Of a DNA stretch of 32,357 nt, positions 594 through 31,302 are shown piece after piece. The translations under genes were made by a program, and so were the position numbers. The stretch spans positions 1-32,357 of IMG/VR virus record IMGVR_UViG_3300004807_000075; one strand, written 5' to 3'. This DNA is from a virus. The notes under the pieces were generated by a model that was given only the letters and a program-made list of their open reading frames with translations, was not told where the DNA came from and made no database searches. Numbering within the stretch: the stretch's first letter is position 1; each line of letters opens with the position of its first letter.

Positions 594-651
594 AAAAATG
601 ACACCTTCATTTATCCAACTCACTGGTGTTCTGCTACTTATCAGAACGGAG

Positions 652-724: not shown

Positions 725-736
725 GTTTTAATAATT

Positions 737-1015
737 TTATACTAAGTACTCATTCGATGAATTATATATCTTAAGTTCATCCTCTATAAGTTCAGACATT
801 TCTACTTTCTTAGGATCGCTAGATAAACACCAAGTATTGGATTTATATCCATATGAATGAATAGTAAAATCATTCAATGGAAACCATACTAATGTAAATT
901 TATCGACATATAAAACTTTAGCTCTATTTTTAAGCCTTATATGTGTTTGATTATCAGAACCGTCGGTAAAGATATCCCCGACTTTTATTTCTCTTCCATC
1001 AATATATCTTCTCAT
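737..1015 (-). CDS. Hypothetical protein, 92 aa
   Basis: Unrecognised small soluble protein. It starts MRRYIDGREIKVGDIF, contains an aromatic beta-rich middle and ends in an acidic stretch (ELIEDELKIY). The opening is reminiscent of small phage proteins with an SH3-like or barrel fold, but I can name no family. It sits between tRNA-Thr (3' end at 1030) and tRNA-Gly (5' end at 724), leaving 12-15 nt on each side. Such tight packing suggests it is transcribed with the tRNA array and released or retained during tRNA processing. Confidence 0.7.
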   Translation of the reverse strand: MRRYIDGREIKVGDIFTDGSDNQTHIRLKNRAKVLYVDKFTLVWFPLNDFTIHSYGYKSNTWCLSSDPKKVEMSELIEDELKIYNSSNEYLV

Positions 1016-1029
1016 AACTATTTATCTTT

Positions 1030-1104
1030 TGAGGTCAATTCCAGACTCGAACTGGAGATTCATGATTACAAATCAAGTGTTATAGCCAACTTAACTAATC
1101 GACC
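1030..1104 (-). tRNA. tRNA-Thr(TGT)
   Basis: Acceptor GGTCGAT pairs with ATTGACC (one G-T). The D-stem is GTTA/TAAC with GG in the loop. The anticodon loop TTTGTAA gives TGT, with one T-T mismatch in the stem. T-arm is TCCAG-TTCGAGT-CTGGA. Confidence 0.95.
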
Positions 1105-1109
1105 TTATG

Positions 1110-1181
1110 TCGCATTACCAATACTCGAAATTGGAATAAAGCCTTATGAGGACTCTGTGATAGCCGTTTCACCATAATGCG
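1110..1181 (-). tRNA. tRNA with CAT anticodon (Met or Ile2), copy 1
   Basis: Acceptor CGCATTA pairs perfectly with TAATGCG, discriminator A. The anticodon loop CTCATAA gives CAT. The anticodon stem (GAGTC/GGCTT) lacks the three G-C pairs of initiators, so this is an elongator Met or a lysidine-type Ile tRNA; sequence alone does not decide. It lies 5 nt from tRNA-Thr. Confidence 0.9.
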
Positions 1182-1230
1182 ATTTTAAAATTTTGTACAC
1201 TTATCAGAGTGTAGTAAGTTAGAAAGAACC

Positions 1231-1313
1231 GTATAGGAATTTAACCTATCCTTATATTAATATGACTACGAATTACTTCGTTTCAGCCAACCGCCCAAGC
1301 TAACTACCTATAC
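1231..1313 (-). other. Structured spacer, possible decayed tRNA
   Basis: An 83-nt segment bounded by a perfect 7-bp inverted repeat (GTATAGG/CCTATAC), with T-A next to the 5' strand and a GTT/AAC pair where a D-stem would be. There is no convincing anticodon arm. The 3' end can alternatively form a 5-bp stem with a 7-nt loop TTAAATT, like a degraded T-arm. A second 69-nt segment at 1317-1385 is bounded by TAAATGA/TCATTTA. Both sit in the 222-nt spacer between two CAT tRNAs and may be tRNA remnants. Confidence 0.3.
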
Positions 1314-1404
1314 TAATAAATGAACGTAGCTGATACTACTGTAATGCGATAGTCTTTACACTTCTATAACTACATCACTCATTTACTTTCTAGCAAAATT
1401 TTAG

Positions 1405-1478
1405 TTGCGCCGGGATAGATTCGAACTATCGATTTTGACCTTATGAGAGTCATGAGATGACCACTTCTCTACCGCGCA
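1405..1478 (-). tRNA. tRNA with CAT anticodon (Met or Ile2), copy 2
   Basis: The D-stem is GAGA/TCTC with GG in the loop. The anticodon stem TGACT/GGTCA holds loop CTCATAA (CAT). The T-arm is GATAG-TTCGAAT-CTATC. The 3' acceptor strand carries one extra base relative to the 5' strand, so the helix has a bulge. Its 5' end overlaps the last 10 nt of the GIY-YIG gene; bases T8-A9-G10 are that gene's TAG stop. Confidence 0.85.
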
Positions 1479-1987
1479 ATTTTATTTTTATAATATTCTA
1501 TCATTCTTTTAGAATGAGATTCTAAATTCTCTTTATTAGAAAATCTTAATTTAGCCTTTTCTGATAATTTACATTTGGTTTCTTCTGAAGAAACTCTTTT
1601 TTTATTAGACTCAGACAATTTTTTTCTAGTTTCTTCAGTAAATTTTCTACCTTTTGCCTTTTCAGATATTACTCTTTTAGTATCTTCTGAATGGGTTCTA
1701 CCTTTAAAATGAGGTCCTCCCTCTCCTCCTACTCCTATATTATAAGTTCTACCTGTTTTTATGAAATCCTCTGTAACTAATTCAATTTCTTTTCTGTTCA
1801 TTTCTTCTTCATTATCAAAAATAAATAGAATCTCTTTTTTGAATTTACTTTTCCCATATTTTTTTATGGCTTTTTGTAAAGCTACTCCTGACCCATAATA
1901 ATCATCATCTATGTTGATAGTTTGATGTTTACCTACGTAAATTTTAGAATTAATTAAATTAGTTATTTTATAGATAATATATTTCAT
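1469..1987 (-). CDS. GIY-YIG homing endonuclease with NUMOD3-like repeats
   Basis: 172 aa. Residues 4-16 (IIYKITNLINSKI) and the following YVGKH match the N-terminal strand pair of the GIY-YIG nuclease fold. The spacing to DYYGSG and to the conserved Glu in the helix (NRKEIELV) resembles SegA-like phage homing enzymes. From about residue 95 there are short repeats of the form GRTHSEDTKRVISEKAKG / GRKFTEETRKKLSES, typical of NUMOD3 DNA-binding modules. Expected role: cut cognate sites lacking the element and drive its spread. It sits within the tRNA array. The exact promoter-like octamer 1994-2001 is 6 nt upstream of the start. The stop codon is formed by the next tRNA, so tRNA processing would remove it. 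Confidence 0.9.
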   Translation of the reverse strand: MKYIIYKITNLINSKIYVGKHQTINIDDDYYGSGVALQKAIKKYGKSKFKKEILFIFDNEEEMNRKEIELVTEDFIKTGRTYNIGVGGEGGPHFKGRTHSEDTKRVISEKAKGRKFTEETRKKLSESNKKRVSSEETKCKLSEKAKLRFSNKENLESHSKRMIEYYKNKIAR

Positions 1988-1993
1988 ATATCT

Positions 1994-2001
1994 ATAAATA
2001 T
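1994..2001 (-). promoter_or_regulatory. ATATTTAT promoter-like octamer upstream of GIY-YIG gene
   Basis: Exact ATATTTAT on the coding strand, 6 nt before the ATG at 1987. It is one of at least 12 identical copies placed just upstream of transcription units in this window. A promoter role is inferred. Confidence 0.45.
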
Positions 2002-2052
2002 TAGCTAATTTAATCTAGCGAGCTACCTATTCACTTCCTCGCAATATTAAAG

Positions 2053-2126
2053 TTGATCCTACCAGACTCGAACTGGTCACCTAATGATTATGAGTCACTT
2101 GCTCTAACCTGATGAGCTAAGGATCA
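2053..2126 (-). tRNA. tRNA with CAT anticodon (Met or Ile2), copy 3
   Basis: Acceptor TGATCCT pairs with AGGATCA (weak U1-A72 end). D-stem GCTC/GAGC, anticodon stem AGTGA/TCATT, loop CTCATAA (CAT), T-arm ACCAG-TTCGAGT-CTGGT, discriminator A. The stem lacks initiator G-C pairs. Three CAT tRNAs in one array suggest that at least one reads AUA as Ile2. Confidence 0.92.
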
Positions 2127-2134
2127 GTGAGAAA

Positions 2135-2193
2135 TTACCTATTCTCCAAGTTGGACGCCTACCAAGTCATGCTCAGGTTATTCCAATAGGTAA
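2135..2193 (-). other. Spacer hairpin with perfect 9-bp stem
   Basis: TTACCTATT pairs perfectly with AATAGGTAA around a 41-nt interior, giving a 59-nt element filling the spacer between two tRNAs. It resembles an acceptor stem without the other tRNA arms. Similar acceptor-length hairpins occur at 2820-2851, 3102-3141, 3485-3520 and 3787-3811. Confidence 0.4.
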
Positions 2194-2200
2194 CATTCTG

Positions 2201-2272
2201 TTTCTCATATTGGACTCGAACCAATGACCTGCTGCTCTCCGCAGCTGCTCTAACCAACTGAGCTAATGAAAA
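2201..2272 (-). tRNA. tRNA gene with abnormal anticodon arm (identity unassigned)
   Basis: Acceptor, D-arm (GCTC-AGTTGGTTA-GAGC) and T-arm (TTGG-TTCGAGT-CCAA) are canonical, and the whole gene is 72 nt. The anticodon arm is only 15 nt: GCTGC and GCAGC close a 5-nt loop GGAGA. If the stem is cut to 4 bp the 7-nt loop is CGGAGAG, with no T33. No normal anticodon can be read. It is either a pseudogene with a 2-nt deletion or an RNA with a non-decoding role. Confidence 0.7.
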
Positions 2273-2376
2273 TAACTACTACCATTTTTCGCCTGCAAGC
2301 TACTTTAAGGGGTGTGTAGAGGATATAGAACATACTTTCAAGTTGCAGCTTGGTTTTTGTTCTTCCAATCCTTTGG

Positions 2377-2450
2377 CGGCTCTAACGGGATTCGAACCCG
2401 TACCACACACCGTGACAAGGTGGTATTGTAAACCATTCAACCATAAAGCC
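2377..2450 (-). tRNA. tRNA-Asp(GTC)
   Basis: Acceptor GGCTTTA pairs with TAGAGCC, discriminator G, the usual Asp identity base. The anticodon loop TTGTCAC reads GTC. T-arm is ACGGG-TTCGAAT-CCCGT. One mismatch at the base of the anticodon stem. Confidence 0.95.
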
Positions 2451-2455
2451 AATTG

Positions 2456-2527
2456 TACAGCGTACGGGGATCGAACCCGTATTATACCCGTGAAAGGGGC
2501 ATGAACTAACCATTATTCGAACGCTGC
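2456..2527 (-). tRNA. tRNA-Glu(TTC)
   Basis: Acceptor GCAGCGT pairs with ACGCTGT (G1-T72 wobble). The anticodon stem TGCCC/GGGTA holds loop CTTTCAC (TTC). T-arm ACGGG-TTCGATC-CCCGT. It lies 5 nt upstream of tRNA-Asp. Confidence 0.95.
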
Positions 2528-2582
2528 ATTTATATAGTAAATATACTACAATAAGTTATATATATGAACTATATCTTTTAAG

Positions 2583-2653
2583 TGGGCCAGAAGAGACTCG
2601 AACTCTTGTGCTTACGTTTTACAGACGGCGCCCACAACCCTGGTGTCTGACCC
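2583..2653 (-). tRNA. tRNA-Tyr(GTA)
   Basis: Acceptor GGGTCAG pairs with CTGGCCC, discriminator A. The anticodon loop CTGTAAA reads GTA, but only three pairs of the anticodon stem form. T-arm AAGAG-TTCGAGT-CTCTT. Bacterial tRNA-Tyr normally has a long variable arm; this one is short (71 nt overall), a departure seen in some organellar and phage tRNAs. Confidence 0.85.
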
Positions 2654-2664
2654 ATTATTTAATG

Positions 2665-2736
2665 CGCTCCCTGAGAATTACGATATCTCGACCTCGATCT
2701 TAACAGGATCTTGCTCTGCCTCTGAGCTAAAGGAGC
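2665..2736 (-). tRNA. tRNA-Asn(GTT) with unusual T-loop
   Basis: Acceptor GCTCCTT pairs with AGGGAGC, discriminator G as expected for Asn. D-stem GCTC/GAGC. The anticodon loop CTGTTAA reads GTT. The T-loop is ATCGTAA instead of TTCGAAT: the normal T54/A58 pair is swapped to A54/T58. The T-stem also has a T-T mismatch next to the loop. Confidence 0.9.
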
Positions 2737-2742
2737 TTGTGT

Positions 2743-2813
2743 GGAGATACTAAGGCTCGAACTTAGATTCCATGAGTATCAGTCATGTGTGCTTACCATT
2801 CTACTATATCTCC
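2743..2813 (-). tRNA. tRNA-Ile(GAT)
   Basis: Acceptor GGAGATA pairs perfectly with TATCTCC. The anticodon stem CATGA/TCATG holds loop CTGATAC (GAT). T-arm CTAAG-TTCGAGC-CTTAG, discriminator A. Confidence 0.95.
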
Positions 2814-2819
2814 AAATGG

Positions 2820-2851
2820 GGTCCGATGCATTCTTTCCATCTACTCGGACC
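2820..2851 (-). other. Spacer hairpin with perfect 7-bp stem
   Basis: GGTCCGA pairs with TCGGACC around 18 nt, in the spacer between tRNA-Ser(GCT) and tRNA-Ile. The stem has acceptor length; on the RNA the 3' strand is followed by CCA. It may be a tRNA remnant or a processing signal. Confidence 0.4.
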
Positions 2852-2866
2852 AACATAGAGGATGCG

Positions 2867-2952
2867 AGGAGAGCATTGCATCGAAGCAAATACCTTTTTA
2901 GAGTACCACACGCTTAGCAGGCGGTGACAGCAACCTTACTGTTTTACTCTCC
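2867..2952 (-). tRNA. tRNA-Ser(GCT)
   Basis: 86 nt, the size of a type II tRNA. Acceptor GGAGAGT pairs with GCTCTCC, anticodon loop CTGCTAA reads GCT, and a longer variable region follows. The T-arm is irregular, with a 6-nt loop TTCGAT between TTGC and GCAA. The discriminator is T rather than the usual G, as in the second Ser tRNA here. Confidence 0.85.
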
Positions 2953-2967
2953 ATAATTATGACCCGG

Positions 2968-3040
2968 GGGTAAATCACAGACTCGAACTGAAACCTCTTG
3001 CTCCACAAACAAGCGTGCTAACCATTACACTAATAAACCC
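2968..3040 (-). tRNA. tRNA-His(GTG)
   Basis: The anticodon stem CTTGT/GCAAG holds loop TTGTGGA (GTG). An extra G at -1 faces C73, the histidine identity pair. The acceptor helix contains two adjacent U-U mismatches (positions 4-69 and 5-68) and the T-stem one T-T, so it is an unusually weak tRNA. D-arm and T-loop are canonical. Confidence 0.88.
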
Positions 3041-3101
3041 ATAAAAATAGTCATTGCTACAACACCTTTCGTCCACTTTCTTGGCAGGACCTCCATCATG
3101 A

Positions 3102-3141
3102 GTTCCGTTAATTGATGTATTTTTATAACCCTCGACGGAAC
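3102..3141 (-). other. Spacer hairpin with perfect 7-bp stem
   Basis: GTTCCGT pairs with ACGGAAC around a 26-nt loop, in the 120-nt spacer between tRNA-Ser(TGA) and tRNA-His. The stem has acceptor-stem length, like the other spacer hairpins of the array. The rest of the spacer shows nothing I recognise. Confidence 0.35.
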
Positions 3142-3160
3142 AAGCAGGGTAACTATTTAG

Positions 3161-3253
3161 AGGAGGAAGACGGACTCGAACCCTCAAACCGGCTTTTTAC
3201 ACCGATACGGCAGTTTTCAAGACTGCTGCCTTACGCAATTAGGCTATTCCTCC
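3161..3253 (-). tRNA. tRNA-Ser(TGA)
   Basis: 93 nt with a long variable arm closed by CGG/CCG. Acceptor GGAGGAA pairs perfectly with TTCCTCC. The anticodon stem GCAGT/ACTGC holds loop CTTGAAA (TGA). The T-stem has one G-G mismatch. Discriminator T. Confidence 0.95.
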
Positions 3254-3263
3254 AAATTATAAG

Positions 3264-3335
3264 ATGCTTCTCAGGGACTCGAACCCCAATTACTTGAATC
3301 AAAATCAAGTGTGTTAACCGTTACACTAAGAAGCA
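3264..3335 (-). tRNA. tRNA-Gln(TTG)
   Basis: Acceptor TGCTTCT pairs with AGAAGCA; the U1-A72 end is typical of Gln. The anticodon stem CTTGA/TCAAG holds loop TTTTGAT (TTG). T-arm TGGGG-TTCGAGT-CCCTG. Confidence 0.95.
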
Positions 3336-3407
3336 ATAAATTAAAGGCTTTTCACCTTTTAGGCAATGCTTGTTTTCATTGAGCCGGCATTTACTGGAAT
3401 GGCCATG

Positions 3408-3480
3408 AGCAGCAAAAGAATTTCGAAATCTCAACCTTCACATTGGCAATGTGACGCTCTAGCCTTTGAGCTACTGCTGC
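3408..3480 (-). tRNA. tRNA-Gly(GCC)
   Basis: Acceptor GCAGCAG pairs with TTGCTGC, discriminator T as expected for Gly. D-stem GCTC/GAGC. The anticodon stem TCACA/TGTGA holds loop TTGCCAA (GCC). The T-loop is TTCGAAA in a weak T-stem. Confidence 0.93.
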
Positions 3481-3484
3481 ATGA

Positions 3485-3520
3485 GTATAGTAGGAGATAT
3501 CATCCTTGAGGTTACTATAC
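3485..3520 (-). other. Spacer hairpin with perfect 8-bp stem
   Basis: GTATAGTA pairs with TACTATAC around 20 nt, directly upstream (5') of tRNA-Gly(GCC) and downstream of tRNA-Val. Another acceptor-length hairpin of the array; possibly a processing or folding insulator. Confidence 0.35.
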
Positions 3521-3535
3521 ATTTTATCCTCTTTG

Positions 3536-3611
3536 TAGGCACTATCCGAGTCGAACGGATGATCTTCACTTTGTAAGAGTGACGCTTTAAAACCATCTAA
3601 GCGAAGCGCCC
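3536..3611 (-). tRNA. tRNA-Val(TAC)
   Basis: Acceptor GGGCGCT pairs with AGTGCCT, with wobbles. The anticodon stem TCACT/AGTGA holds loop CTTACAA (TAC). T-arm ATCCG-TTCGACT-CGGAT, discriminator A. Confidence 0.94.
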
Positions 3612-3672
3612 ATTTGTACCTTCTTTTGAGAAAGTGAAGGCACATTCATCTTTCGGAAAGTTCCATTTATTC

Positions 3673-3688
3673 AACAAAGGCCTTTGTT
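3673..3688. repeat. Perfect 16-bp palindrome AACAAAGGCCTTTGTT
   Basis: A gapless perfect palindrome in the 101-nt spacer between tRNA-Ala and tRNA-Val. It could be a protein operator or an RNA hairpin with a very small loop. No promoter octamer was seen beside it. Confidence 0.5.
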
Positions 3689-3712
3689 TAATGTTTACTT
3701 TCAAACCCATAG

Positions 3713-3787
3713 TGGAAAGTAAGGGTATCGAACCCTTCTCATAGATCTTGCAAAGATCCATCGCCAAGCCTTGGAACATGACTCCCC
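3713..3787 (-). tRNA. tRNA-Ala(TGC)
   Basis: Acceptor GGGGAGT pairs with ACTTTCC and contains the G3-U70 wobble that defines alanine identity. The anticodon stem GGATC/GATCT holds loop TTTGCAA (TGC). T-arm AAGGG-TTCGATA-CCCTT. The D-arm is irregular: the region between acceptor and anticodon arm best forms CCAA-GGC-TTGG. The 3' trailer (3695-3702) can pair 8 bp with the 3' acceptor strand. Confidence 0.9.
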
Positions 3788-3811
3788 AAATTAATGGATT
3801 TGTTTAATTTG
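3787..3811 (-). other. AT-rich spacer hairpin with 8-bp stem
   Basis: CAAATTAA pairs with TTAATTTG around 9 nt, immediately 5' of tRNA-Ala on the transcript. Its AT content makes chance occurrence more likely than for the other spacer hairpins. Confidence 0.25.
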
Positions 3812-3847
3812 ATTAACAATACCATTTAAAAAATAGCTTTTCAAAAG

Positions 3848-3923
3848 TCGAGATGACAAGGGTCGAACTTGCACGATGTCTTCATCCCAAATGAAGCGAC
3901 CTAGCCAATTGGTCCACATCTCG
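3848..3923 (-). tRNA. tRNA-Pro(TGG)
   Basis: Acceptor CGAGATG pairs perfectly with CATCTCG; the C1-G72 end is typical for Pro. D-stem GACC/GGTC. The anticodon stem CTTCA/TGAAG holds loop TTTGGGA (TGG). Discriminator A. Confidence 0.95.
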
Positions 3924-3952
3924 ATAAATTCCATATGTCAAAGATCCAAAAG

Positions 3953-4025
3953 AGGTTAAGGTGAGAATTGAACTCACGTATCAGCGTTTGCAGTGCTGTG
4001 CCTTTATCCACTCGGCCACTCAACC
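3953..4025 (-). tRNA. tRNA-Cys(GCA)
   Basis: Acceptor GGTTGAG pairs with CTTAACC, discriminator T as required for Cys. The anticodon loop CTGCAAA reads GCA, with an A-C mismatch next to the loop. T-arm GTGAG-TTCAATT-CTCAC. Confidence 0.95.
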
Positions 4026-4032
4026 ATTCATG

Positions 4033-4105
4033 TACTCTTAAAGCGATTCGAACGCTTATTGCTAGATCCGTAGTCTAGAGTTCTAATCCATTGAACTATA
4101 AGAGC
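4033..4105 (-). tRNA. tRNA-Arg(ACG)
   Basis: Acceptor GCTCTTA pairs with TAAGAGT. The anticodon stem CTAGA/TCTAG holds loop CTACGGA (ACG). Decoding of CGC and CGA would need A34 to inosine editing by a host TadA. T-arm AAGCG-TTCGAAT-CGCTT. Confidence 0.95.
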
Positions 4106-4111
4106 ATTTTG

Positions 4112-4184
4112 CACGCATACTAAGATTCGAACTTAGAACAGCGGTTTTGGAGGCCGACATGATACCATTTCACCATACACGCGT
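4112..4184 (-). tRNA. tRNA-Trp(CCA)
   Basis: Acceptor ACGCGTG pairs with TATGCGT using wobbles; A1-U72 and discriminator G match Trp identity. The loop CTCCAAA reads CCA, though the closing stem pair next to the loop is C-A. T-arm CTAAG-TTCGAAT-CTTAG. Confidence 0.9.
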
Positions 4185-4194
4185 ATATTTTTTG

Positions 4195-4268
4195 TACCCC
4201 CTGTGAGATTCGAACTCACAACCCCATGGTTAAAAGCCACGTACATCTACCAATTGAGCTAAGAGGGC
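4195..4268 (-). tRNA. tRNA-Lys(TTT)
   Basis: Acceptor GCCCTCT pairs with AGGGGGT. The anticodon loop CTTTTAA reads TTT. T-arm GTGAG-TTCGAAT-CTCAC, discriminator A. The 3' side of the D-stem is GATG instead of GAGC, so only two D-stem pairs form. Confidence 0.93.
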
Positions 4269-4322
4269 GTTTGTGTTCCCTCCTGCTTCAGAGAGACTTT
4301 TAACTTATAATTTTCTTCATTT

Positions 4323-4568
4323 TTATTTTATCTTTATCAAAGTGTTATTTTCAATTGCTTTTCTGATCCATCTCATAAAAGTTATAGCTTTGTCCGTTGC
4401 CATTAACGTTGCGCCTGCTATGTCTTCTGTCGGTATTGTAAACTGATACGTTTCTCCGTCAGGGGTTTTATTACTATTGTAAACATTATAGTAGAAAAAA
4501 CCAGCTCTATAACTATCAAATGATACAACATGCTCTTTTGTCACTATGTCTTTTATATTCATTTCCAT
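4323..4568 (-). CDS. Hypothetical protein, 81 aa
   Basis: Unrecognised. A small soluble protein with a beta-rich first half (FDSYRAGFFYYNVYN) and a helical tail that contains MRWIRKAIENN. The central text ETYQFTIPTEDIAGATLM looks like a strand-turn-helix. It overlaps the preceding 65-aa ORF by 10 nt, so the two are translationally linked. The pair lies between tRNA-Phe and the main tRNA array. The good start context and coupled overlap support a real gene. The function is unknown. Confidence 0.72.
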   Translation of the reverse strand: MEMNIKDIVTKEHVVSFDSYRAGFFYYNVYNSNKTPDGETYQFTIPTEDIAGATLMATDKAITFMRWIRKAIENNTLIKIK

Positions 4569-4756
4569 TTTGTTTTTCTATTATATTTCCATATTCTATG
4601 TTCTCTCCATTTATGATTTGGCATATTTCCATGATGCCAATTCCAAGATCCGTCTTCATAGTATGGTTCACATAAACTTGGGTTTGTAACAATTTTATAC
4701 TCTTTGTTATGAGTAGTTATTTGGCTTATTTTGCCTTTAACTGGTTTCATTGTCAT
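4559..4756 (-). CDS. Hypothetical protein, 65 aa, Trp/His-rich
   Basis: Unrecognised. It is basic and rich in Trp, His and Tyr (SWNWHHGNMPNHKWREHRIW), ending in a basic tail. Two start codons are possible: ATG at 4756 and ATG at 4750 (third codon). The first lies inside the stem of a perfect 8-bp hairpin (4754-4775), so initiation at 4750 or control by this hairpin is plausible. It overlaps the downstream 81-aa gene by 10 nt. Confidence 0.65.
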   Translation of the reverse strand: MTMKPVKGKISQITTHNKEYKIVTNPSLCEPYYEDGSWNWHHGNMPNHKWREHRIWKYNRKTKWK

Positions 4757-4775
4757 TAGGTTTGATTACCTAATG
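4754..4775 (-). promoter_or_regulatory. Hairpin covering a start codon
   Basis: CATTAGGT pairs with ACCTAATG around a 6-nt loop. The 3' strand contains the ATG at 4754-4756 of the 65-aa ORF. There is no U-tract, so it is not a standard terminator. It may separate tRNA-Phe from the mRNA or gate initiation. Confidence 0.4.
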
Positions 4776-4797
4776 CTTGTCGTATTTATTTTTCATG

Positions 4798-4869
4798 CGG
4801 TAACAAGAAGTAATGATCTTCTCTCTTAAGTTTTTCAGACTTACGCTAATCCATCTCAGCTATGTTACC
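4798..4869 (-). tRNA. tRNA-Phe(GAA) with unusual T-loop
   Basis: Acceptor GGTAACA pairs perfectly with TGTTACC. D-stem GCT/AGC with GG in the loop. The anticodon stem TAAGT/ACTTA holds loop CTGAAAA (GAA). T-stem AGAAG/CTTCT is perfect but the loop is ATCATTA, with A54 and T58 in place of T54 and A58, the same swap as in tRNA-Asn. It lies about 530 nt from the main array, across two small genes. Confidence 0.93.
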
Positions 4870-4881
4870 AAAAATAAAAAA

Positions 4882-4904
4882 CCTCAACTTTTTTTGAGTT
4901 GAGG
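4882..4904 (-). terminator. Intrinsic terminator downstream of the 47-aa ORF
   Basis: CCTCAACT pairs with AGTTGAGG around a 7-nt A-rich loop. On the minus strand the stem is followed by TTTTTTATTTTT. It ends the tmRNA/47-aa unit before tRNA-Phe. The plus-strand side has a weaker T-run, so it may act in both directions. Confidence 0.8.
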
Positions 4905-4932
4905 CTTAATTTTTGATTTTATATTTGATCTT

Positions 4933-5076
4933 TTACAATCCTTCAAAATCATTAAGCCCCGGTGAATTACTAGGTTTTCCTTGCACATCATTAATTGACA
5001 TAAAACAATAGCCTAGGGATAACGTATTTCTACGCTCTATCTGCCACGCCGATGTATGTAATAAATGTTGTTTCAT
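4933..5076 (-). CDS. Small hypothetical protein, 47 aa
   Basis: A short ORF from ATG at 5076 to TAA at 4933, translating to MKQHLLHTSAWQIERR and ending LNDFEGL. I recognise no family. Three facts support it: an exact promoter-like ATATTTAT octamer (5081-5088) 4 nt before the start, an intrinsic terminator 29 nt after the stop, and amphipathic, non-repetitive composition. It lies between tmRNA and tRNA-Phe. Confidence 0.55.
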   Translation of the reverse strand: MKQHLLHTSAWQIERRNTLSLGYCFMSINDVQGKPSNSPGLNDFEGL

Positions 5077-5080
5077 GCTA

Positions 5081-5088
5081 ATAAATAT
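5081..5088 (-). promoter_or_regulatory. ATATTTAT promoter-like octamer upstream of 47-aa ORF
   Basis: Exact octamer on the coding strand, 4 nt from the start codon at 5076. If it is a -10-like element, the transcript would be leaderless or nearly so. Confidence 0.4.
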
Positions 5089-5179
5089 GTGCATTTATAA
5101 TAAAACGCTTTTTGTAATTGTGATATAGTAAACTTACTACTAATTTTTGATATAAAAAAATTTATTTTTAAAGTCTCAG

Positions 5180-5247
5180 TATTGGTTATCAATCAGTTAT
5201 GCTTAACTAGTTGGTTTCCAATTACCATAACTAGTTGATAATCAATA
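5180..5247 (-). terminator. Long imperfect hairpin 3' of tmRNA
   Basis: Two 22-nt arms pair with only a G-U and a two-base mismatch, and the interior holds TTGG-TTT-CCAA and palindromic AACTAGTT. On the minus strand it begins 22 nt after the tmRNA 3' end and is followed by an A/T-rich run containing seven T. It is a likely tmRNA terminator or 3' processing structure. Confidence 0.55.
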
Positions 5248-5268
5248 AAGAATTTTTAAAAGTGACCG

Positions 5269-5764
5269 TGGAGATGAGGGGATTCGAACCCCTGTCTCTG
5301 AAAGTAATCATAATACCCTTCTTACATGCTTAGTCATACTGTACACAGTGACAAGAGTTAATCTGCTATCATCAGGCTACGTGTTTCTAATGTTCCTGTT
5401 CTGATGCTTCGCTCAATAACTGATTAGTATGGGTCGTATTGGTATACGAGTTTTGAATCCACCACTTGGTTTAAGTCCAAGAACTTGTAGCATTGGCATA
5501 CTACTGTGTAAGCTCTAAAATCACGGGCCAAAATCCGTCTAGTCTTCACACGATTTGTAACTATTATGTTCCTAGGTCAGTTACCAACCCGTAGACTAAG
5601 CTGCCAGAGCAACAGGAGCATTTGAAAATGCCATGTTGATAACGTTGTTTGCGAAGTCTAGGTTTGCAGTTTTATTTGCGTTTATTTTTTAAGAGTTGTT
5701 TACCTCTCTCTAGGCTCGCATGTGATACTACCATTCTCATCCAGATCAAATGCCGGGCATCCCC
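5269..5764 (-). ncRNA. ssrA: tmRNA (ribosome-rescue RNA)
   Basis: This RNA enters stalled ribosomes as an alanyl-tRNA mimic and then serves as mRNA for a degradation tag. The 5' GGGGATG pairs with the 3' CATCTCC, including the G3-U70 alanine identity wobble, with discriminator A and no encoded CCA. The T-arm is GGGG-TTCGAAT-CCCC. The text GACTAAGCATGTA upstream of the 3' end matches the conserved tmRNA 3' region. A tag frame at 5596-5652 ends ALAA-stop. At 496 nt it is longer than the typical 350-400 nt, mostly in the region after the tag where pseudoknots lie. An exact ATATTTAT octamer sits 11 nt upstream. It is surrounded by phage genes, so it is viral. Confidence 0.95.
5596..5652 (-). other. 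tmRNA tag-peptide reading frame
   Basis: Starting at the GCA at 5652, the frame reads ANNVINMAFSNAPVALAA and ends TAG. The ALAA end is the ClpXP/ClpAP-type degron found on bacterial tags. Eighteen residues is well above the usual 8-15. The resume codon is inferred from the CTAGAC text upstream, which resembles the determinant seen in other tmRNAs; one codon earlier (TTC) is possible. Confidence 0.85.
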
Positions 5765-7839: not shown

Positions 7840-9078
7840 CTAATTCGATAATGGTGCTTTAATTACTGGGTGTGATTGATAGTTTTCTAATTCAAAAAAA
7901 TCTGATTTGAATTTATCAATTTTTTCTGTAAATGGTATGCCTATGTCTTTTAAATACCAATATTCGTCTTTACATAAGAGTTTAGGTAATTCATATGGAG
8001 TTCTTGTAATTTGTTCTTTAGCTTGATCAATATGATTATTATATAGATGAACATCACCTAAGTTACCAATTAATTCTTCGGGAACCATATTTACTTCTAT
8101 AGCTATGATTTCTAATAGTAAACTATAAGATGCTATGTTGAATGGTAAACCTAAGAATGTATCTACTGAACGTTGATTCCACATTAAAGAGATTGCTCGT
8201 TTAGGAACATTTCCATTAAATGATGGGTCATCCCACATTGAATTAACTTCCAATCTCACATTAACCATATTAATGGTTTCGTCAGACGTTGGGATTACAG
8301 TATCTTTACCAGTATAACCATGTTTTTTTGATAATTCCCATCTTTCTTCAAACGTCAACTCTCTCGTATAAACTTGAAATCTATAATGGCATGGTGGAAG
8401 AACCATCGAATCCAGTTCTGCAGGGTTCCAGGCCGATACAAGCATTCTTCTACTATCTGGATTTGTTTTAAGGTCATTGATTAGATTTTGGATTTGGTCA
8501 ATACCTTCATTCTTCTTTCTCACTTTGGAATTACCATCTTCAATGCGTTCTTGACAATCACAAAAATATGGGTTTATTTCACCACCTTTATAGTCGGTTA
8601 TCTGTTCAGGTTTACCATTCCAATTCTTCCATTGCTTACCATATATAGGACCTAACTCACCCCACTTCTTAGCAAACTCATCATCGGTTTTGATTTTGTT
8701 GATAAATCTATCTCGAAGAAACTTATCGTAGGTTACTGTTTCACCTAAAGAAGCACTTTCAAACTCTTCTTTTAACTGAACATTATAATAAACGGTATTA
8801 ACCCATTTCTTATATGCATCACCATCCCAAATATGACAATCATTATCAACAAGATATTTGATATTAGTATCACCTCGTAAGAACCATAATAGTTCTGTTA
8901 CTACACTTTTGAAATGTATTTTCTTAGTTGTAAGTAAAGGAAACCCTTCTTTCATATTGTGGCGTATTTGCCAACCAAATATGGATTTAATACCTGTTCC
9001 TGTTCTATCTTTTTTATCAACACCAAAACGAATGATGTGTTCTAATATTTCTTTATATTGTCTGTCTAGATTGTTCAT
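7840..9078 (-). CDS. thyA: Thymidylate synthase, long form (412 aa)
   Basis: Converts dUMP to dTMP with methylene-tetrahydrofolate. The N-terminal RTGTG (residues 25-29) and FPLLTTKK (46-53) are family hallmarks, as is WFLRGDTN at 65-72. The nucleophile is Cys230 in LPPCHYRF. The dUMP-binding RSVD is at 303-306, and Asn314 in GLPFN is the residue that selects uracil over cytosine. GDVHLYNNH closes the folate site. At 412 aa it is about 100-150 aa longer than most ThyA. Insertions lie at about 150-195 (with CDC) and about 240-293, between the catalytic Cys and RSVD. They show no intein motifs. It follows a small secreted protein gene by 1 nt. Confidence 0.96.
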   Translation of the reverse strand: MNNLDRQYKEILEHIIRFGVDKKDRTGTGIKSIFGWQIRHNMKEGFPLLTTKKIHFKSVVTELLWFLRGDTNIKYLVDNDCHIWDGDAYKKWVNTVYYNVQLKEEFESASLGETVTYDKFLRDRFINKIKTDDEFAKKWGELGPIYGKQWKNWNGKPEQITDYKGGEINPYFCDCQERIEDGNSKVRKKNEGIDQIQNLINDLKTNPDSRRMLVSAWNPAELDSMVLPPCHYRFQVYTRELTFEERWELSKKHGYTGKDTVIPTSDETINMVNVRLEVNSMWDDPSFNGNVPKRAISLMWNQRSVDTFLGLPFNIASYSLLLEIIAIEVNMVPEELIGNLGDVHLYNNHIDQAKEQITRTPYELPKLLCKDEYWYLKDIGIPFTEKIDKFKSDFFELENYQSHPVIKAPLSN

Positions 9079-12230: not shown

Positions 12231-12872
12231 TTATTTTTCTAGTAAGTTATAATGTCTTGGGTATACATGGAGATTGGTAATCAGCCAATTCATTTCTCCA
12301 ACAGGGATTTTTAATTCATAAGCTACTTTCTCCATTAATTTTGCAAAAGTAAATTGGTCATTACAAAAACCAAAAACTAAATCTATGCTTCTTGCGAATA
12401 CTGTTAGATCTAATCTATTATTTCTAATGTAGAAATTTAATACATCGTTGCAAGGAGTATCGTATTTGTACCGATCTATTTCGTGAGGTATATAATGTAC
12501 CACGATAGCTCTTCTTGTTTCTGGATTGGATTTAAGATCTTCTATAACCCTTTTTAATTGATCGTTATATTTCCAAAAATATCCGTAATTAGAATTGACT
12601 TCTGTGGTACCGGGGATCATCATCTGTTTCCATATCTTTGCTCTTTCTGCAATTTTTTTTGCATCACGATCTCCTTTTAAATACCATTCCCACTCAAACT
12701 CTGCGTATTCTAAATTGAACTTTCTTTCTGGTGTGGTAATGATTTTATCTTCGGGATTTAATAAAGTAAAAGATTTATTAAATACTGCTTTCGTTCCTGC
12801 GAAACTTTCTCCAGCTATGTCTATGTGATGAAATAACCATTCAAATGCTTCTGTTGCGTTACTAAAATTCAT
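12231..12872 (-). CDS. Thymidylate-synthase-family enzyme, possible pyrimidine hydroxymethylase
   Basis: 213 aa, shorter than ThyA. The family is clear from NSNYGYFW (93-100), the SNPETRRAIV region (115-124), the nucleophile Cys141 in TPCND, ARSIDLVFG (160-168) and the final NLHVYPRHYNL. The residue aligned with the uracil-selecting Asn (Asn314 in the long ThyA here) is Asp172 in GFCND. In T4 dCMP hydroxymethylase an Asp at this position gives cytosine specificity. I infer a dCMP or dUMP hydroxymethylase, or a dCMP methylase, rather than a second dTMP synthase. It overlaps the dCMP deaminase gene by 11 nt, placing it in a nucleotide-modification run with MazG. Confidence 0.82.
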   Translation of the reverse strand: MNFSNATEAFEWLFHHIDIAGESFAGTKAVFNKSFTLLNPEDKIITTPERKFNLEYAEFEWEWYLKGDRDAKKIAERAKIWKQMMIPGTTEVNSNYGYFWKYNDQLKRVIEDLKSNPETRRAIVVHYIPHEIDRYKYDTPCNDVLNFYIRNNRLDLTVFARSIDLVFGFCNDQFTFAKLMEKVAYELKIPVGEMNWLITNLHVYPRHYNLLEK

Positions 12873-16975: not shown

Positions 16976-17593
16976 TTATAACTTTTTATTTTCGTAGTAT
17001 TGTAATTTTCCTGTTTTTATTCTGTATATAATAGCGGCTGATGATATTCCATGATACTCTCCTGCATGCTTTAATGAATCAAATATAATATTATTTTCTG
17101 TATCTATAACTTTTTTTCTCTTGGTGCTAGGTTTTCCAAATTGAGAGTTATCTTTTCCATATCTACTTCTACCCATTTTTGATTTTGATTCTTCTGAATG
17201 TTTAAAATTAGCTAATTTGGCTTTAATTCTATCGATTACTTCTTTACTATGTTTTTTATTGTAAAATGGGTTATTTTCTCCTGTGTTTAATTTAGCCATT
17301 TCTTTTCTTGCATATTCGATTACTCTAGAACTAGGAACATAATTCTTTGCGCTAGTCGACTTAATATGACACATTTTACTAAATGCGTAGGCTAATTTAT
17401 GATTATCGGGATAAATTTCATGGAGTAACCAATGACATAAAAAGTGCTCTCTAGCTGTTAATTCTATTAGATTTTCTATTTTATTAGACCCTCCCATACA
17501 CTTTGGAACTATGTGATGTTTTTCTATATAACCTTCTAACTTTCTAGTTTTTGCTCTTTTAATAATTTGATCATAGATTCTTTGGTAATTCAT
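16976..17593 (-). CDS. HNH homing endonuclease with NUMOD3 and NUMOD1 modules
   Basis: 205 aa from ATG 17593. The HNH motif is EKHHIVPKCMGGSN followed by NLIELTAREHFLCHWLL (about residues 23-57), with His-His, Asn and His at the expected places. NUMOD3-like text NPFYNKKHSKEVIDRIKAKL follows at about 108-127, and the end (KKVIDTENNIIFDSLKHAG then SSAAIIYRI) is a NUMOD1 helix-turn-helix. I reject an upstream TTG start because it would lie within the pseudoknot leader. The gene, its leader (17604-17681) and octamer promoter (17697-17704) form a cassette inserted between groEL and the SGNH-like gene. Acts as a site-specific DNA endonuclease. Confidence 0.93.
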   Translation of the reverse strand: MNYQRIYDQIIKRAKTRKLEGYIEKHHIVPKCMGGSNKIENLIELTAREHFLCHWLLHEIYPDNHKLAYAFSKMCHIKSTSAKNYVPSSRVIEYARKEMAKLNTGENNPFYNKKHSKEVIDRIKAKLANFKHSEESKSKMGRSRYGKDNSQFGKPSTKRKKVIDTENNIIFDSLKHAGEYHGISSAAIIYRIKTGKLQYYENKKL

Positions 17594-17603
17594 AAAATAA
17601 AAA

Positions 17604-17681
17604 TGGTCCAAAAAACAGAGGAGCTACTACCTTCCTAAATTTAATGGACCAATAAGTTTATTATAGACTGTTGGTAGTAGC
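17604..17681 (-). promoter_or_regulatory. Pseudoknot leader RNA of the HNH gene (copy 1)
   Basis: On the transcript, helix 1 is GCTACTACC (17681-17673) with GGTAGTAGC (17631-17623), and helix 2 is TGGTCCA (17651-17645) with TGGACCA (17610-17604). The helices interleave, so both together form an H-type pseudoknot ending 10 nt before the ATG. Copy 2 at 23416-23494 keeps loops and spacing, while both helices change in a base-pair-preserving way. Confidence 0.8.
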
Positions 17682-17696
17682 AACTATCTATCTACA

Positions 17697-17704
17697 ATAA
17701 ATAT
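17697..17704 (-). promoter_or_regulatory. ATATTTAT promoter-like octamer of the HNH cassette
   Basis: Exact octamer 15 nt upstream of the first pseudoknot base, the same spacing as in copy 2 (23510-23517). The transcript would start just before the pseudoknot. Confidence 0.6.
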
Positions 17705-20330: not shown

Positions 20331-20391
20331 AGTTTTAAAATTTGTGTTCCCTTACGGTGAACGGTTTAATGTTTATTGTTTATAACTAAAG

Positions 20392-20406
20392 GCCTACTAA
20401 GTACCT
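20392..20406 (-). repeat. 15-bp inverted repeat flanking hsp20, arm 2
   Basis: Exact reverse complement of arm 1 (19877-19891). On the transcript this arm lies about 60 nt upstream of the hsp20 start and 10 nt downstream of an ATATTTAT octamer, so it would be near the 5' end of the mRNA. Confidence 0.75.
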
Positions 20407-20416
20407 TTTATTTCTA

Positions 20417-20424
20417 ATAAATAT
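20417..20424 (-). promoter_or_regulatory. ATATTTAT promoter-like octamer upstream of hsp20
   Basis: Exact octamer within ACATATATTTATTAG, about 87 nt upstream of the hsp20 start and 10 nt upstream of the inverted-repeat arm. Confidence 0.5.
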
Positions 20425-20458
20425 ATGTAAATTATAATTCATAAAAAAATTAAATTTT

Positions 20459-22771
20459 TTAGTGACCTTCAAGCCAATTTTTAGCTAATGATGGTACTGC
20501 GAATAAAGGAACATTTAATTTAGTTGTATTCTCCATACAATCTTGTACAATTTCCGCGGCTTCTTTTGCTCTATCGTGTTCTACTTCACATATCAACTGG
20601 TCATGAATTTGAGCGCAAACCCATCCATTTATTCCTACTTCCTTAAATCTTCTATTGATTGATATAGCAGCTCTGTTTACGATGGAAGCGGCTAAGCCTT
20701 GTATTTGTACATTACAACTATTATTTAATCCATTTTTATAATCTCTATATAATTTAGTTATTTGATCTTCTCCAAATTCATATGATAATTGTTTTTTTAT
20801 ATTCCAATCTAACAAAGAATCTCCTAATTCATCATATATTTTTTTTACTTTAGGCAAGTGTCTTATTCTACCCACTTGAGTTTTTATATAACCAAAATCT
20901 TTTATATATTTAATTGAATTTTCCATCCACTCTTTTAATTTTGGAAATCCATTTAAATAACCATCGACTAATTTTTTAGCATCTTTAGTAGGAATATCTA
21001 AATTTTTACCTAAAGCATAAGGAGACATACCATAAGGAATTCCTAAAGCATATGCTTTGGCTTTATTTCTAATTTTTGGTTTATGTTTTCTTAAAAAATT
21101 ATCTGCTTTTTTGTCTGGAGAATAGTCGAACAGTTTTTCTGTTTTAATAGCAATCGTACAATAAAAGTCCCAACCATTTTTAAAAATGTCCATTAATCCA
21201 TTATCACCAGATACGTGAGCGAATACGCTTGGTTCTAGAGAAGAATAGTCATCGTCGATGAATATGTTATGTTCGTCAGGAATAAAAAATGCTCTTACTC
21301 TATTATTATATTCGATAACTATTGGATCGTCATCGCCTTCTTCTTTTGGTCGAGGTAATTGTTGTGCGTCAGATCCGTATCTTCCTGATACAGTACCGTG
21401 TTGCTTATAACTAAAATAGTATCGACCGTTTTCTTGATTACCCAAAAATCTTTCTACGTATGTAGACTTAATTTTTAATAACTTATTGTATATTCTTAAA
21501 TTCTTTGCCCATTCTTCAGTGTCTCCGATAATTTGGATTACATCGTCGTCAAATTGTGGCTTTCCTGTTTTTGTGGTTGATTTGTGTTTTATGCCCAAAG
21601 CTCCAAAAGCAATTTCACCCATCTGATCTTTAGATTGTATGTTAAACCAATCCCCATCGTTGGATTCTTTCCAAAGTTTTAATTGAATTTTAGTAACATC
21701 ATCAGGATCTAAGATTTGTTTATCTCCGTGTAATAAGAATTCTTTTAAAGGTCCCGCTTCTATTTTAAGAATGTTAGAATTGGTGATGTTATATTTACCC
21801 GTTTTTTCTGACTTTGGAAAATCTATTCCACTTCTATTAATTAATTCTACTGCAAATGTGCCTCGGTTATTCGCAGGGAACGCATCGGCAGCTTTTAGCA
21901 TGATCCAATACTTAACCTCAGCATTACTAAGCAATTCATCAACGACCTTCTTCTTGTGATCCTCAAGAGCTTGGGTAACTTCTTCTTGGGTTTTGAGAAT
22001 TAAATCCATATCCAATCTTACACCCTTTTCTTCCATAGGAATTGTAACTTCTTTGTACAAAGGCATTACTTCGTCTTCAAAAAAGAATTTATCAAGTTCT
22101 TGATCATAAAGATCTTTTATAAAGTGATTGTATATTCTAAGTGTTAAATCGGTATCTGCTGCAGCGTATTCGGACAAAATTTCTATATCTGCTTTCCAAA
22201 TTTCATAATTATCTCTTGTAATTGATCCGCCATTTTTTTTGATGGATTCTTTCAATATAATCTGTTCTTCATTGGCCGCTTTCTCTATGTCTAATCCAAG
22301 TTCTGTTTGAATTGATTTGGCTATGCTTTTTAAACCAAATGGGGAATTGGATCCAAATCCAGCGCCTTCTTCATTTACTGTGTGTACTAATAACATTGTA
22401 TCAGCGTGTAAAGAAGGCAATAAGTCAATGCCGTAAAAACACCTAATAAATCTGCCATCAAAAGAAAAATTATGAGCGATTAATTTTTTACCATGAAGTA
22501 AATTAAGTATTTTTTTAGCTATATCATGACATGATACACCTTCTACAGTATTTTCTATAAGAGAATTTGATTCTTTATCATATAATAGCGTAGGTATATA
22601 ATATCCATAGCCCTCTATTGCTGATATAGACAGGCCTATTATTTTTCCTTTTCTAGGATTTAGACTGTTAGTTTCTGTGTCTATTGATATTAAGTCATAA
22701 CTTTTTATATGGTCAACTAGATTTTTGATATCTTCTTTTGTTGAAACACATATATACTTTTTATTTATCAT
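20459..22771 (-). CDS. polA: DNA polymerase I, family A, with 3'-5' exonuclease
   Basis: 770 aa. The N-terminal DEDDy proofreading domain shows ISIDTETNSLN (Exo I), LIAHNFSFDGRF (Exo II) and EYAAADTDLTLRIY (Exo III, Tyr and Asp). The polymerase domain shows motif A DDDYSSLEPSVFAHVSGD, motif B RNKAKAYALGIPYGMS and motif C VCAQIHDQLICEVE, where HDQ replaces the usual HDE. There is no 5'-3' exonuclease domain; that activity is a separate gene at 28337-29365. This is likely the main replicative polymerase. A GIY-YIG endonuclease gene lies directly upstream and overlaps its start by 11 nt, a common place for homing cassettes. Confidence 0.97.
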   Translation of the reverse strand: MINKKYICVSTKEDIKNLVDHIKSYDLISIDTETNSLNPRKGKIIGLSISAIEGYGYYIPTLLYDKESNSLIENTVEGVSCHDIAKKILNLLHGKKLIAHNFSFDGRFIRCFYGIDLLPSLHADTMLLVHTVNEEGAGFGSNSPFGLKSIAKSIQTELGLDIEKAANEEQIILKESIKKNGGSITRDNYEIWKADIEILSEYAAADTDLTLRIYNHFIKDLYDQELDKFFFEDEVMPLYKEVTIPMEEKGVRLDMDLILKTQEEVTQALEDHKKKVVDELLSNAEVKYWIMLKAADAFPANNRGTFAVELINRSGIDFPKSEKTGKYNITNSNILKIEAGPLKEFLLHGDKQILDPDDVTKIQLKLWKESNDGDWFNIQSKDQMGEIAFGALGIKHKSTTKTGKPQFDDDVIQIIGDTEEWAKNLRIYNKLLKIKSTYVERFLGNQENGRYYFSYKQHGTVSGRYGSDAQQLPRPKEEGDDDPIVIEYNNRVRAFFIPDEHNIFIDDDYSSLEPSVFAHVSGDNGLMDIFKNGWDFYCTIAIKTEKLFDYSPDKKADNFLRKHKPKIRNKAKAYALGIPYGMSPYALGKNLDIPTKDAKKLVDGYLNGFPKLKEWMENSIKYIKDFGYIKTQVGRIRHLPKVKKIYDELGDSLLDWNIKKQLSYEFGEDQITKLYRDYKNGLNNSCNVQIQGLAASIVNRAAISINRRFKEVGINGWVCAQIHDQLICEVEHDRAKEAAEIVQDCMENTTKLNVPLFAVPSLAKNWLEGH

Positions 22772-23405
22772 AAATGAATTTTACCTTTATTTTATTTTTA
22801 TTCCATCTAGAAATTGTAGCTGATGATCTATTAAAAAATTTAGCTGCATCTTGTATAGTTAAGAAAACGGTACCAGATTCTATACATAATACTTTTTGTG
22901 ATCTACCATTAGAGGCTCCTGATAGCTTTTTGGATTGAATAATCTTTTTTTCATTAGTCCATAGAGCCTGAAATTTTTTCTTATAATCATCAGTTGTGTA
23001 TTTTATTTTTAATTTATCACCTAATTCACGAGCAATTTTCTTATTTTTCATAGGATTATGAAATCTCATAAATTGTGACTGTTCAGGTCTTTTTTTACCA
23101 AACATTATACATTTATCTCCCGATCCAGAGCCACTTGCTGATGCACATTGCATTGAGTAATATGGTTTTTTAAAAAATTTATCTAATAAAAGCTGCTCTT
23201 GTAAATATGCCTCTTCTCTACTTTCATATTCACTTAATATTTCATATTCAAACATATTATATTTTAAATACGCTCTTTGCATTATAGAATTTCCATGTGT
23301 ACCCTTAGCTAATTCTCGAAAATGATCTTTCATTCTCTTTTTTAAATTATTTGTAGATCCAATTTGTTTCCATGGACCTATTTTAATTTGATATACTACA
23401 TTCAT
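22761..23405 (-). CDS. GIY-YIG homing endonuclease with NUMOD1 end
   Basis: 214 aa from ATG 23405. The N-terminus (NVVYQIKIGPWKQIGSTNNLKKRM) is a divergent GIY-YIG core: the first strand is VYQIK and the second IGST, with the conserved Arg in KKRMKDHF and a likely catalytic Glu in REEAYLQEQ. A NUMOD-like middle (NPMKNKKIARELGDKL) follows, and the C-terminus (VFLTIQDAAKFFNRSS then ATISRW) is a NUMOD1 helix-turn-helix. Its leader pseudoknot and promoter octamer are near copies of those before the unrelated HNH gene at 16976-17593. The stop overlaps the polA start by 11 nt. Site-specific DNA endonuclease. Confidence 0.85.
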   Translation of the reverse strand: MNVVYQIKIGPWKQIGSTNNLKKRMKDHFRELAKGTHGNSIMQRAYLKYNMFEYEILSEYESREEAYLQEQLLLDKFFKKPYYSMQCASASGSGSGDKCIMFGKKRPEQSQFMRFHNPMKNKKIARELGDKLKIKYTTDDYKKKFQALWTNEKKIIQSKKLSGASNGRSQKVLCIESGTVFLTIQDAAKFFNRSSATISRWNKNKIKVKFIYDK

Positions 23406-23415
23406 AAAATAAAAA

Positions 23416-23494
23416 TGGTTCAAAAAAACAAAGGAGCTCTAACCTTCCTAAGTTTAAATGAACCAATAAGTTTATAACAGATATCTAGTTAGAG
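23416..23494 (-). promoter_or_regulatory. Pseudoknot leader RNA of the GIY-YIG gene (copy 2)
   Basis: Helix 1 is CTCTAAC (23494-23488) with GTTAGAG (23443-23437), and helix 2 is TGGTTCA (23465-23459) with TGAACCA (23422-23416). Same order, loops and 10-nt spacing to ATG as copy 1, but helix 1 differs at several positions and helix 2 at one, all with compensating partners. Confidence 0.8.
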
Positions 23495-23509
23495 TAGTTT
23501 CTATACATT

Positions 23510-23517
23510 ATAAATAT
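23510..23517 (-). promoter_or_regulatory. ATATTTAT promoter-like octamer of the GIY-YIG cassette
   Basis: Exact octamer 15 nt upstream of the pseudoknot, identical spacing to copy 1. Confidence 0.6.
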
Positions 23518-30480: not shown

Positions 30481-31302
30481 TTAAAATGAAAATAATTCAT
30501 CGATTTTTGCATCGACGTCCGTTTTCTTCGTGCTCAGTGAAAATTTAGGAGTTGGAGTTTCCTCTTTTTCCCAAGGTAAATCACCGACTGTTTCAGTCTT
30601 AACTTCAACCGAATCAACGTTTTCTTTAAGATCTTCTTCAGGATTTAAATGAGACATCAATGCGCTCTTCATTTCTTCATAAGAGTATTTTTTGAATTGC
30701 GTCATTGGATCTGGTTGTGTAGTCAACCACTGTTTAACTTTTGCAGCATCATCAGATAACGCGCTAATTTTTGTTCTTACACGTACACTAGATGTATTGT
30801 AAGATAAACCAGTAGTTTCTTTTCCTTGCACGTCGATAATAATATCTCGACCTTGAACTGGATCTGTAAAATCTCCTACATCTTCATCTTCGATCAAAGC
30901 CAATAAATCCATGTAAACTTGCTTACCAAATCCCCATAAAAGTACACCTTTATCTTCTTCTCCTCTAACAATTACAGGAACGTAGATTCTCATTTTTGGT
31001 TCTAATTTCTTAGCTAATTGCCAATCTTCTTTAACAGAAGATTTTCTTAAGCCTTGAGAAAATTCAACAATGGGATCTTTTTCTCCAAAATTGCTTAAAG
31101 AGATCATGGTGTTTTTGTTACCAATTCCATAATGAAATAATAACTCTTTAAATGGGTTTGATTTACTGTACATCGAAGGAACGATGCGTACATTGTGTTT
31201 ACCTACTGTAGGTGACCATAGCGTTTTTGCTAGGCCTGATGACTGTCCGCCTCTTGGATTTTGAAGCGTGGCAAGTCTTTGCTTTAGAGCAGAAATGTCC
31301 AT
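30481..31302 (-). CDS. Single-stranded DNA-binding protein, T4 gp32-like
   Basis: 273 aa. The N-terminal LAST-like basic segment (MDISALKQRLATLQNPRGG) is followed by LWSPTVGKHNVRIVPS, as in gp32 relatives. The OB-fold region contains MRIYVPVIVRGEEDKGVLLWGFGKQVYMDLLALIED and the strand GRDIIIDVQGKE. The C-terminal tail is acidic (VDAKIDELFSF), the part that recruits helicase and polymerase. There are no Cys residues, so the zinc site of T4 gp32 is absent. It coats ssDNA at the fork. Followed by a strong terminator, consistent with high expression. Confidence 0.9.
   Translation of the reverse strand: MDISALKQRLATLQNPRGGQSSGLAKTLWSPTVGKHNVRIVPSMYSKSNPFKELLFHYGIGNKNTMISLSNFGEKDPIVEFSQGLRKSSVKEDWQLAKKLEPKMRIYVPVIVRGEEDKGVLLWGFGKQVYMDLLALIEDEDVGDFTDPVQGRDIIIDVQGKETTGLSYNTSSVRVRTKISALSDDAAKVKQWLTTQPDPMTQFKKYSYEEMKSALMSHLNPEEDLKENVDSVEVKTETVGDLPWEKEETPTPKFSLSTKKTDVDAKIDELFSF

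Follow-up and report, generated by a model that had tools for sequence, protein, structure and literature searches.

A kissing-loop pseudoknot leader at the front of phage homing endonuclease cassettes

Two nuclease cassettes in the viral window

The window, which is the whole stretch of 32,357 nucleotides of the IMG/VR virus record IMGVR_UViG_3300004807_000075, contains an HNH and a GIY-YIG homing endonuclease gene (HEG), each preceded by a leader. Both leaders are on the minus strand and align end to end (Table 1). The complementary segments named for them in the original prediction are present when the minus strand is read. The predicted spacing of 10 nt to the ATG holds for the end of helix 2 in both leaders, and helix 1 begins 15-16 nt past the octamer ATATTTAT in both. 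For the core pattern TTAGGAAGGTNNNAGCTCCT the window has two occurrences, versus 0.04 expected.

Table 1. Coordinates of the two HEG cassettes in the window
Feature	Position	Strand	Basis
HNH copy, helix 2, TGGTCCA / TGGACCA	17645-17651 / 17604-17610	-	
HNH copy, helix 1 (kissing helix), CTACTAC / GTAGTAG	17674-17680 / 17624-17630	-	
HNH cassette, promoter-like octamer ATATTTAT	17697-17704	-	Group-wide enrichment
HNH copy, P1 5' hairpin, outer stem GTAGAT/GTCTAT, inner stem GTTG/CAAC	17663-17695	-	MFE fold; covarying pairs in relatives
HNH copy, loop L1 CTACTAC, 5' strand of kissing helix	17674-17680	-	Fully complementary to L2
HNH copy, P2 stem-loop, base TGGTCCA/TGGACCA and inner stems	17604-17651	-	Compensated base-stem variants
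HNH copy, loop L2 GTAGTAG, 3' strand of kissing helix	17624-17630	-	Fold and covariation
HNH copy, U-rich start region UUUUUAUUUU, P2 to AUG	17594-17603	-	U counts vs ordinary genes
HNH homing endonuclease ORF with NUMOD3 motif, ATG at 17593	16976-17593	-	Pfam PF07460, E 1.5e-12; PF01844 sub-threshold
GIY-YIG copy, helix 2, TGGTTCA / TGAACCA	23459-23465 / 23416-23422	-	
GIY-YIG copy, helix 1 (kissing helix), CTCTAAC / GTTAGAG	23488-23494 / 23437-23443	-	
GIY-YIG cassette, promoter-like octamer ATATTTAT	23510-23517	-	Group-wide enrichment; missing from empty site
GIY-YIG copy, P1 inner stem and loop L1, ACTA (CTCTAAC) TAGA	23484-23498	-	
GIY-YIG copy, loop L1 CTCTAAC	23488-23494	-	
GIY-YIG copy, P2 stem-loop, base TGGTTCA/TGAACCA	23416-23465	-	
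GIY-YIG copy, loop L2 GTTAGAG	23437-23443	-	
GIY-YIG copy, U-rich start region UUUUUAUUUU before AUG	23406-23415	-	U counts vs ordinary genes
GIY-YIG homing endonuclease ORF, ATG at 23405	22761-23405	-	Pfam PF01541, E 3.2e-8

The octamer ATATTTAT is found 36 times upstream of genes across the phage group against 3.3 expected, an elevenfold enrichment, and it is best read as a putative general promoter element of the group. Its assignment to the leader element itself was rejected because it is general to genes of these phages. It is present upstream of nearly all leaders, which places a putative promoter of its own beside the HEG. With ordinary start-site spacing after the octamer, the 5' end of the mRNA would fall within the outer stem of P1.

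A third HEG (GIY-YIG with NUMOD3, 1469-1987, minus strand) has the octamer alone, 14 nt before its ATG, and no kissing-loop leader. It is the one HEG inserted among the 24 tRNA genes and the tmRNA that are clustered at 522-5764. The window also has two distinct thymidylate-synthase-like genes (7840-9078 and 12231-12872), judged from their translations.

Structure and covariation of the leader

The leader is an intramolecular kissing-loop pseudoknot of about 100 nt, made of two stem-loops (P1 and P2) with complementary loops. The two interleaved helices of the original prediction were confirmed, but it had missed the 5' hairpin P1 around the first strand of helix 1; its helix 2 stands as the base stem of P2, which has an inner stem in addition. 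Since the P1 loop is the 5' strand of helix 1 and helix 2 has this inner stem, the topology is that of a kissing loop. MFE folds recover P1 and P2 in nearly all copies. The P1 loop has 7 nt and the apical loop of P2 usually 7 nt, with 6 nt in a few copies. There are 19 loop types, and every one is perfectly complementary between P1 and P2. Those of 7 nt are CTACTAC, CTCTAAC, GCGGAAT, CCGGAAT, CTGCGAA, TTGCGAC, CTGGTAC, ATGCGAC, CTACGAC, GTGCGAT, GGGCAAT, GGGGAAT, CCGTAAT, ATCCGAC, CTAGGAA and CTGCGAC, and those of 6 nt are CGGCAA, CTGCAA and CTGCAT. These matched pairs provide a natural series that is useful in research on RNA loop-loop contacts and in their engineering. The ColE1 RNA I/RNA II pair also uses fully complementary loops of about 7 nt, but in intermolecular antisense control, whereas the contact here is made within one mRNA leader.

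Covariation was assessed in a structure-guided alignment of 18 copies, in which standard pairs fill 97.4% of the pair cells. Two-sided changes occur at 19 of 32 pairs, compared to 0-4 when the partners are slid, and the covariation score of 0.415 compares to 0.162 in shuffled alignments and does not exceed 0.071 once the partners are slid. In this alignment (A7), pairing in the kissing helix is complete (100%); 5 of its 7 pairs have changed on both sides, as have 5 of the 6 in the P2 base. The model behind this alignment held the P1 and P2 stems without the kissing helix; therefore, the kissing-helix counts are the cleaner test. The P2 base stem appears in 22 variants among 32 leaders, nearly all of them compensated. 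Pairing of the linker to the start region is present in some MFE folds and has no covariation support. In a distant subfamily an extra helix joins the 5' end to the start-site region; across three sequences it shows one compensatory change.

On the mRNA-sense strand the mismatches of these 18 copies comprise 18 G-U pairs and no A-C pairs, with two shifted-P1 rows left out. Together with the two-sided changes, this asymmetry indicates that the selected form is RNA of the mRNA-sense strand, and the predicted selection on RNA structure is thereby supported. A signal acting as single-stranded DNA in recombination or homing would suit an element that belongs to a mobile cassette, but the strand asymmetry and the constant position between promoter and start codon make it very improbable. 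A riboswitch or self-cleaving ribozyme is also highly unlikely. The leader is a compact pseudoknotted 5' UTR as such elements can be, but it has no Rfam match, and the P2 interior and the loops vary freely, so that neither a ligand pocket nor a catalytic core is conserved.

Distribution and mobility of the cassette

A structure-guided model (R2) and a wider model (R3) were run on 200 related virus records, which had been collected via GroEL, DNA polymerase, RecA and the leader sequence. The family comprises about 50 distinct copies in 49 of the 200 records (18, 8, 20 and 3 records with matches per set of 50), some of the records being overlapping fragments of one phage. The covariance search thus found far more than the two copies of the window, with the helices maintained. 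An architecture-only descriptor also refinds the family, with 51 matches in total versus 17 in shuffled sequence of equal length; because of this background, descriptor matches outside a promoter or start-codon context are no evidence. Three leader-sequence patterns searched against IMG/VR returned overlapping contig sets, and the copies read from them all lie upstream of an HEG-like or truncated HEG ORF. One pattern match, in L007, was discarded as an unrelated chance match.

With few exceptions, intact copies stand before HNH or GIY-YIG HEGs, in agreement with the proposed association with mobile nuclease genes. The association is not circular since the searches used the leader only. Among isolates, Flavobacterium phage immuto comes closest, its polymerase being 54% identical, which makes Flavobacterium-like hosts probable. 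The leader has no significant match in immuto, blastn against isolated phages gave only short chance matches, and of six pattern matches in bacterial genomes none was confirmed by the covariance model. At the gathering threshold Rfam 15 reports only tRNA and tmRNA in the window, and the leaders stay below every gathering score in permissive scans, which covered one window copy and divergent copies. Neither Rfam nor the openly accessible literature searched yielded an equivalent of the architecture, as the original prediction had supposed. Both the kissing-loop architecture and its sharing across nuclease families appear to be new. The manA and wcaG motifs are likewise structured 5' UTR elements of T4-like phages (PMC2864571), but they belong to other genes in cyanophages, and no leader member matches Rfam.

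The leader is the front of an optional, free-standing homing-endonuclease cassette. At the polA site, the empty alleles L102 and L112 have near-identical flanks and lack both the leader and the HEG; since the two are absent together, they form one mobile cassette. The octamer is missing from the empty site too, and the annotation of phage immuto has no HEG at this position. The leader is also exchanged between nuclease genes, because L369 and L368 share an identical run of 114 nt, from octamer to ATG, which leads into an HNH gene in the former and a GIY-YIG gene in the latter. Here the sequence differs on both sides of the run and the ORFs are unrelated. Independence from nuclease family is borne out by this one leader serving both. 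The two window nucleases were predicted to be unrelated, which holds for the catalytic domains but not entirely for the C-termini, where there is weak similarity (24% over 82 aa, E 7e-5).

Some leaders are separated from an intact nuclease. In L103 and L150 the leader is kept and the ORF deleted; in L103 (4436-4660) the HEG ORF is cut to its last codons behind an intact leader, the nuclease decaying before the leader. L020 has a copy without P1 upstream of a broken HEG. A solo kissing structure, CTGCGAC/GTCGCAG, is found in L354 (about 905-1000, record G189), where a recA/uvsX-like gene follows directly. This copy has neither an HEG nor the octamer and lies between ssb and recA; it is either a remnant or a takeover by a phage gene.

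Within genomes, none of 27 leader pairs shares a loop type, versus 2.2 expected (permutation P = 0.09), so that orthogonality of the loops is suggestive only. It is conceivable, but distinctly doubtful, that the loop pair is an address and that differing pairs prevent trans pairing between the leaders of one genome. If so, the leader would itself count as a mobile regulatory module that passes from one nuclease gene to another and is at times left over or adopted by phage genes, as with the recA/uvsX-like gene of L354.

The start region and nuclease output

The leader ends in an unusual start region. At least 8 of the 12 nt before the start are U in 37 of 40 HEG leaders, compared to 3 of 258 ordinary genes. 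Adenine at positions -3, -6, -12 and -13 is found in 5, 10, 15 and 7% of 40 distinct HEG leaders but in 51-57% of 258 ordinary phage genes; U occupies -3 and -6 instead, and C of the P2 base occupies -12 and -13. In F. johnsoniae, A at these four positions promotes initiation, and UUUU at -14 to -11 lowered reporter output by 60% (Baez et al. 2019, PMC6847099). The stretch from -27 to -13 is also far more structured, with a predicted unpaired fraction of 0.31 versus 0.56 in ordinary genes (p 4e-15). Since the HEG leaders are poor in the adenines that favour F. johnsoniae initiation and are structured at -27 to -13, a design for low translation is supported, though not proved. Composition and position of the start region make it, on balance, somewhat probable that the leader restrains HEG translation and keeps nuclease output low.

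In such a mechanism, transcription would start just past the octamer and the mRNA would open directly with the fold. P2 would be locked by the kissing complex as a stable fold at -12, immediately upstream of a start region depleted of the adenines favoured by Flavobacterium ribosomes. The locked P2 and the adenine-poor start may together hinder 30S loading, resulting in low nuclease output. Candidates for release of the brake, if there is any, are unfolding, a bound protein or the origin of the transcript as in T4. Translation from a TTG in the leader (MDHFYFM...) is disfavoured, since the distance from P2 to the ATG varies, at about 7-14 nt, and the frame is not kept.

Several observations count against a translation brake. 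In the main family P2 adjoins the last 12 nt and does not cover them, and these are predicted to be mostly open (0.60 versus 0.70 in ordinary genes). Related HEGs without the leader occur in the same phage group. P2 followed immediately by a U-run is also terminator-like, and attenuation of transcription is the main rival. P2 and the U-run would be a leaky intrinsic terminator, with P1 kissing tuning the folding and HEG mRNA kept low. The P2 base abuts a run of 4-7 U residues in nearly all copies, and such runs are rare before ordinary genes. However, A or C breaks the run in most copies and no alternative antiterminator pairing was noticed. A terminator scan detected the groEL terminator but flagged neither window leader; with loops restricted to 3-8 nt, it is biased against a hairpin this long. 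Overall, attenuation is considered unlikely. It is quite improbable that the compact kissing loop is instead a 5' stability element shielding HEG mRNA from end-dependent decay. The fold begins a few nucleotides from the likely start site and keeps its architecture while the sequence changes freely, in keeping with this, but the adenine-stripped start region is left unexplained.

The nearest functional precedent for a translation brake is the RNA structure that limits HEG translation in T4 I-TevI/II/III, segB and Aeh1 mobE (PMC2988022). These also concern phage HEGs of the GIY-YIG and HNH types with their own promoter near the RNA structure (PMC2988022). Unlike the leader, which kisses through a loop-loop helix of 6-7 bp, those hairpins sequester a Shine-Dalgarno site (PMC2988022), whereas the hosts here lack Shine-Dalgarno use and one leader family is exchanged between nuclease families. 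Detailed knowledge of HEG self-restraint is confined to a small number of T4-like phages infecting enterobacteria and Aeromonas. Support for the leader as an RNA family is strong, and the family, apparently undescribed, may do a comparable job in phages of hosts without Shine-Dalgarno use; it makes the need for homing endonuclease restraint testable in Flavobacterium.

In the T4 gene 32 operator, binding is nucleated at a 5' pseudoknot and covers an A/U-rich start region that is itself unstructured (PMC535899). The leader has the same order of elements in a T4-type phage mRNA, so a protein-binding operator, e.g. for the phage's gp32-like SSB (window 30481-31302), was considered; the solo copy beside ssb would also fit. 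However, the gene 32 pseudoknot has about 28 nt, is bound by gp32 and precedes its own gene, whereas the leader has about 100 nt and precedes HEGs. The phage's own ssb leader was examined and has no such structure, and no unpaired recognition motif is conserved across all loop types. An operator of this kind is therefore rather remote.

Two leaderless HEGs, in L183 (about 5230) and L233 (about 4700), have inverted repeats of 10-11 bp across the octamer that reach the start site, resembling the logic of T4 I-TevI. Octamer-straddling repeats of at least 6 bp are not clearly enriched before leaderless HEGs (9 of 22 versus 69 of 268). The hsp20-like gene has a conserved structured leader of a second kind (window 20331-20426, minus strand). 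It consists of the octamer, then AGGTACTTAGTAGGCCT and, further on, CCGTTCACC and GGGAACACAAA, and words from it are met again before about 17 genes in the compared loci.
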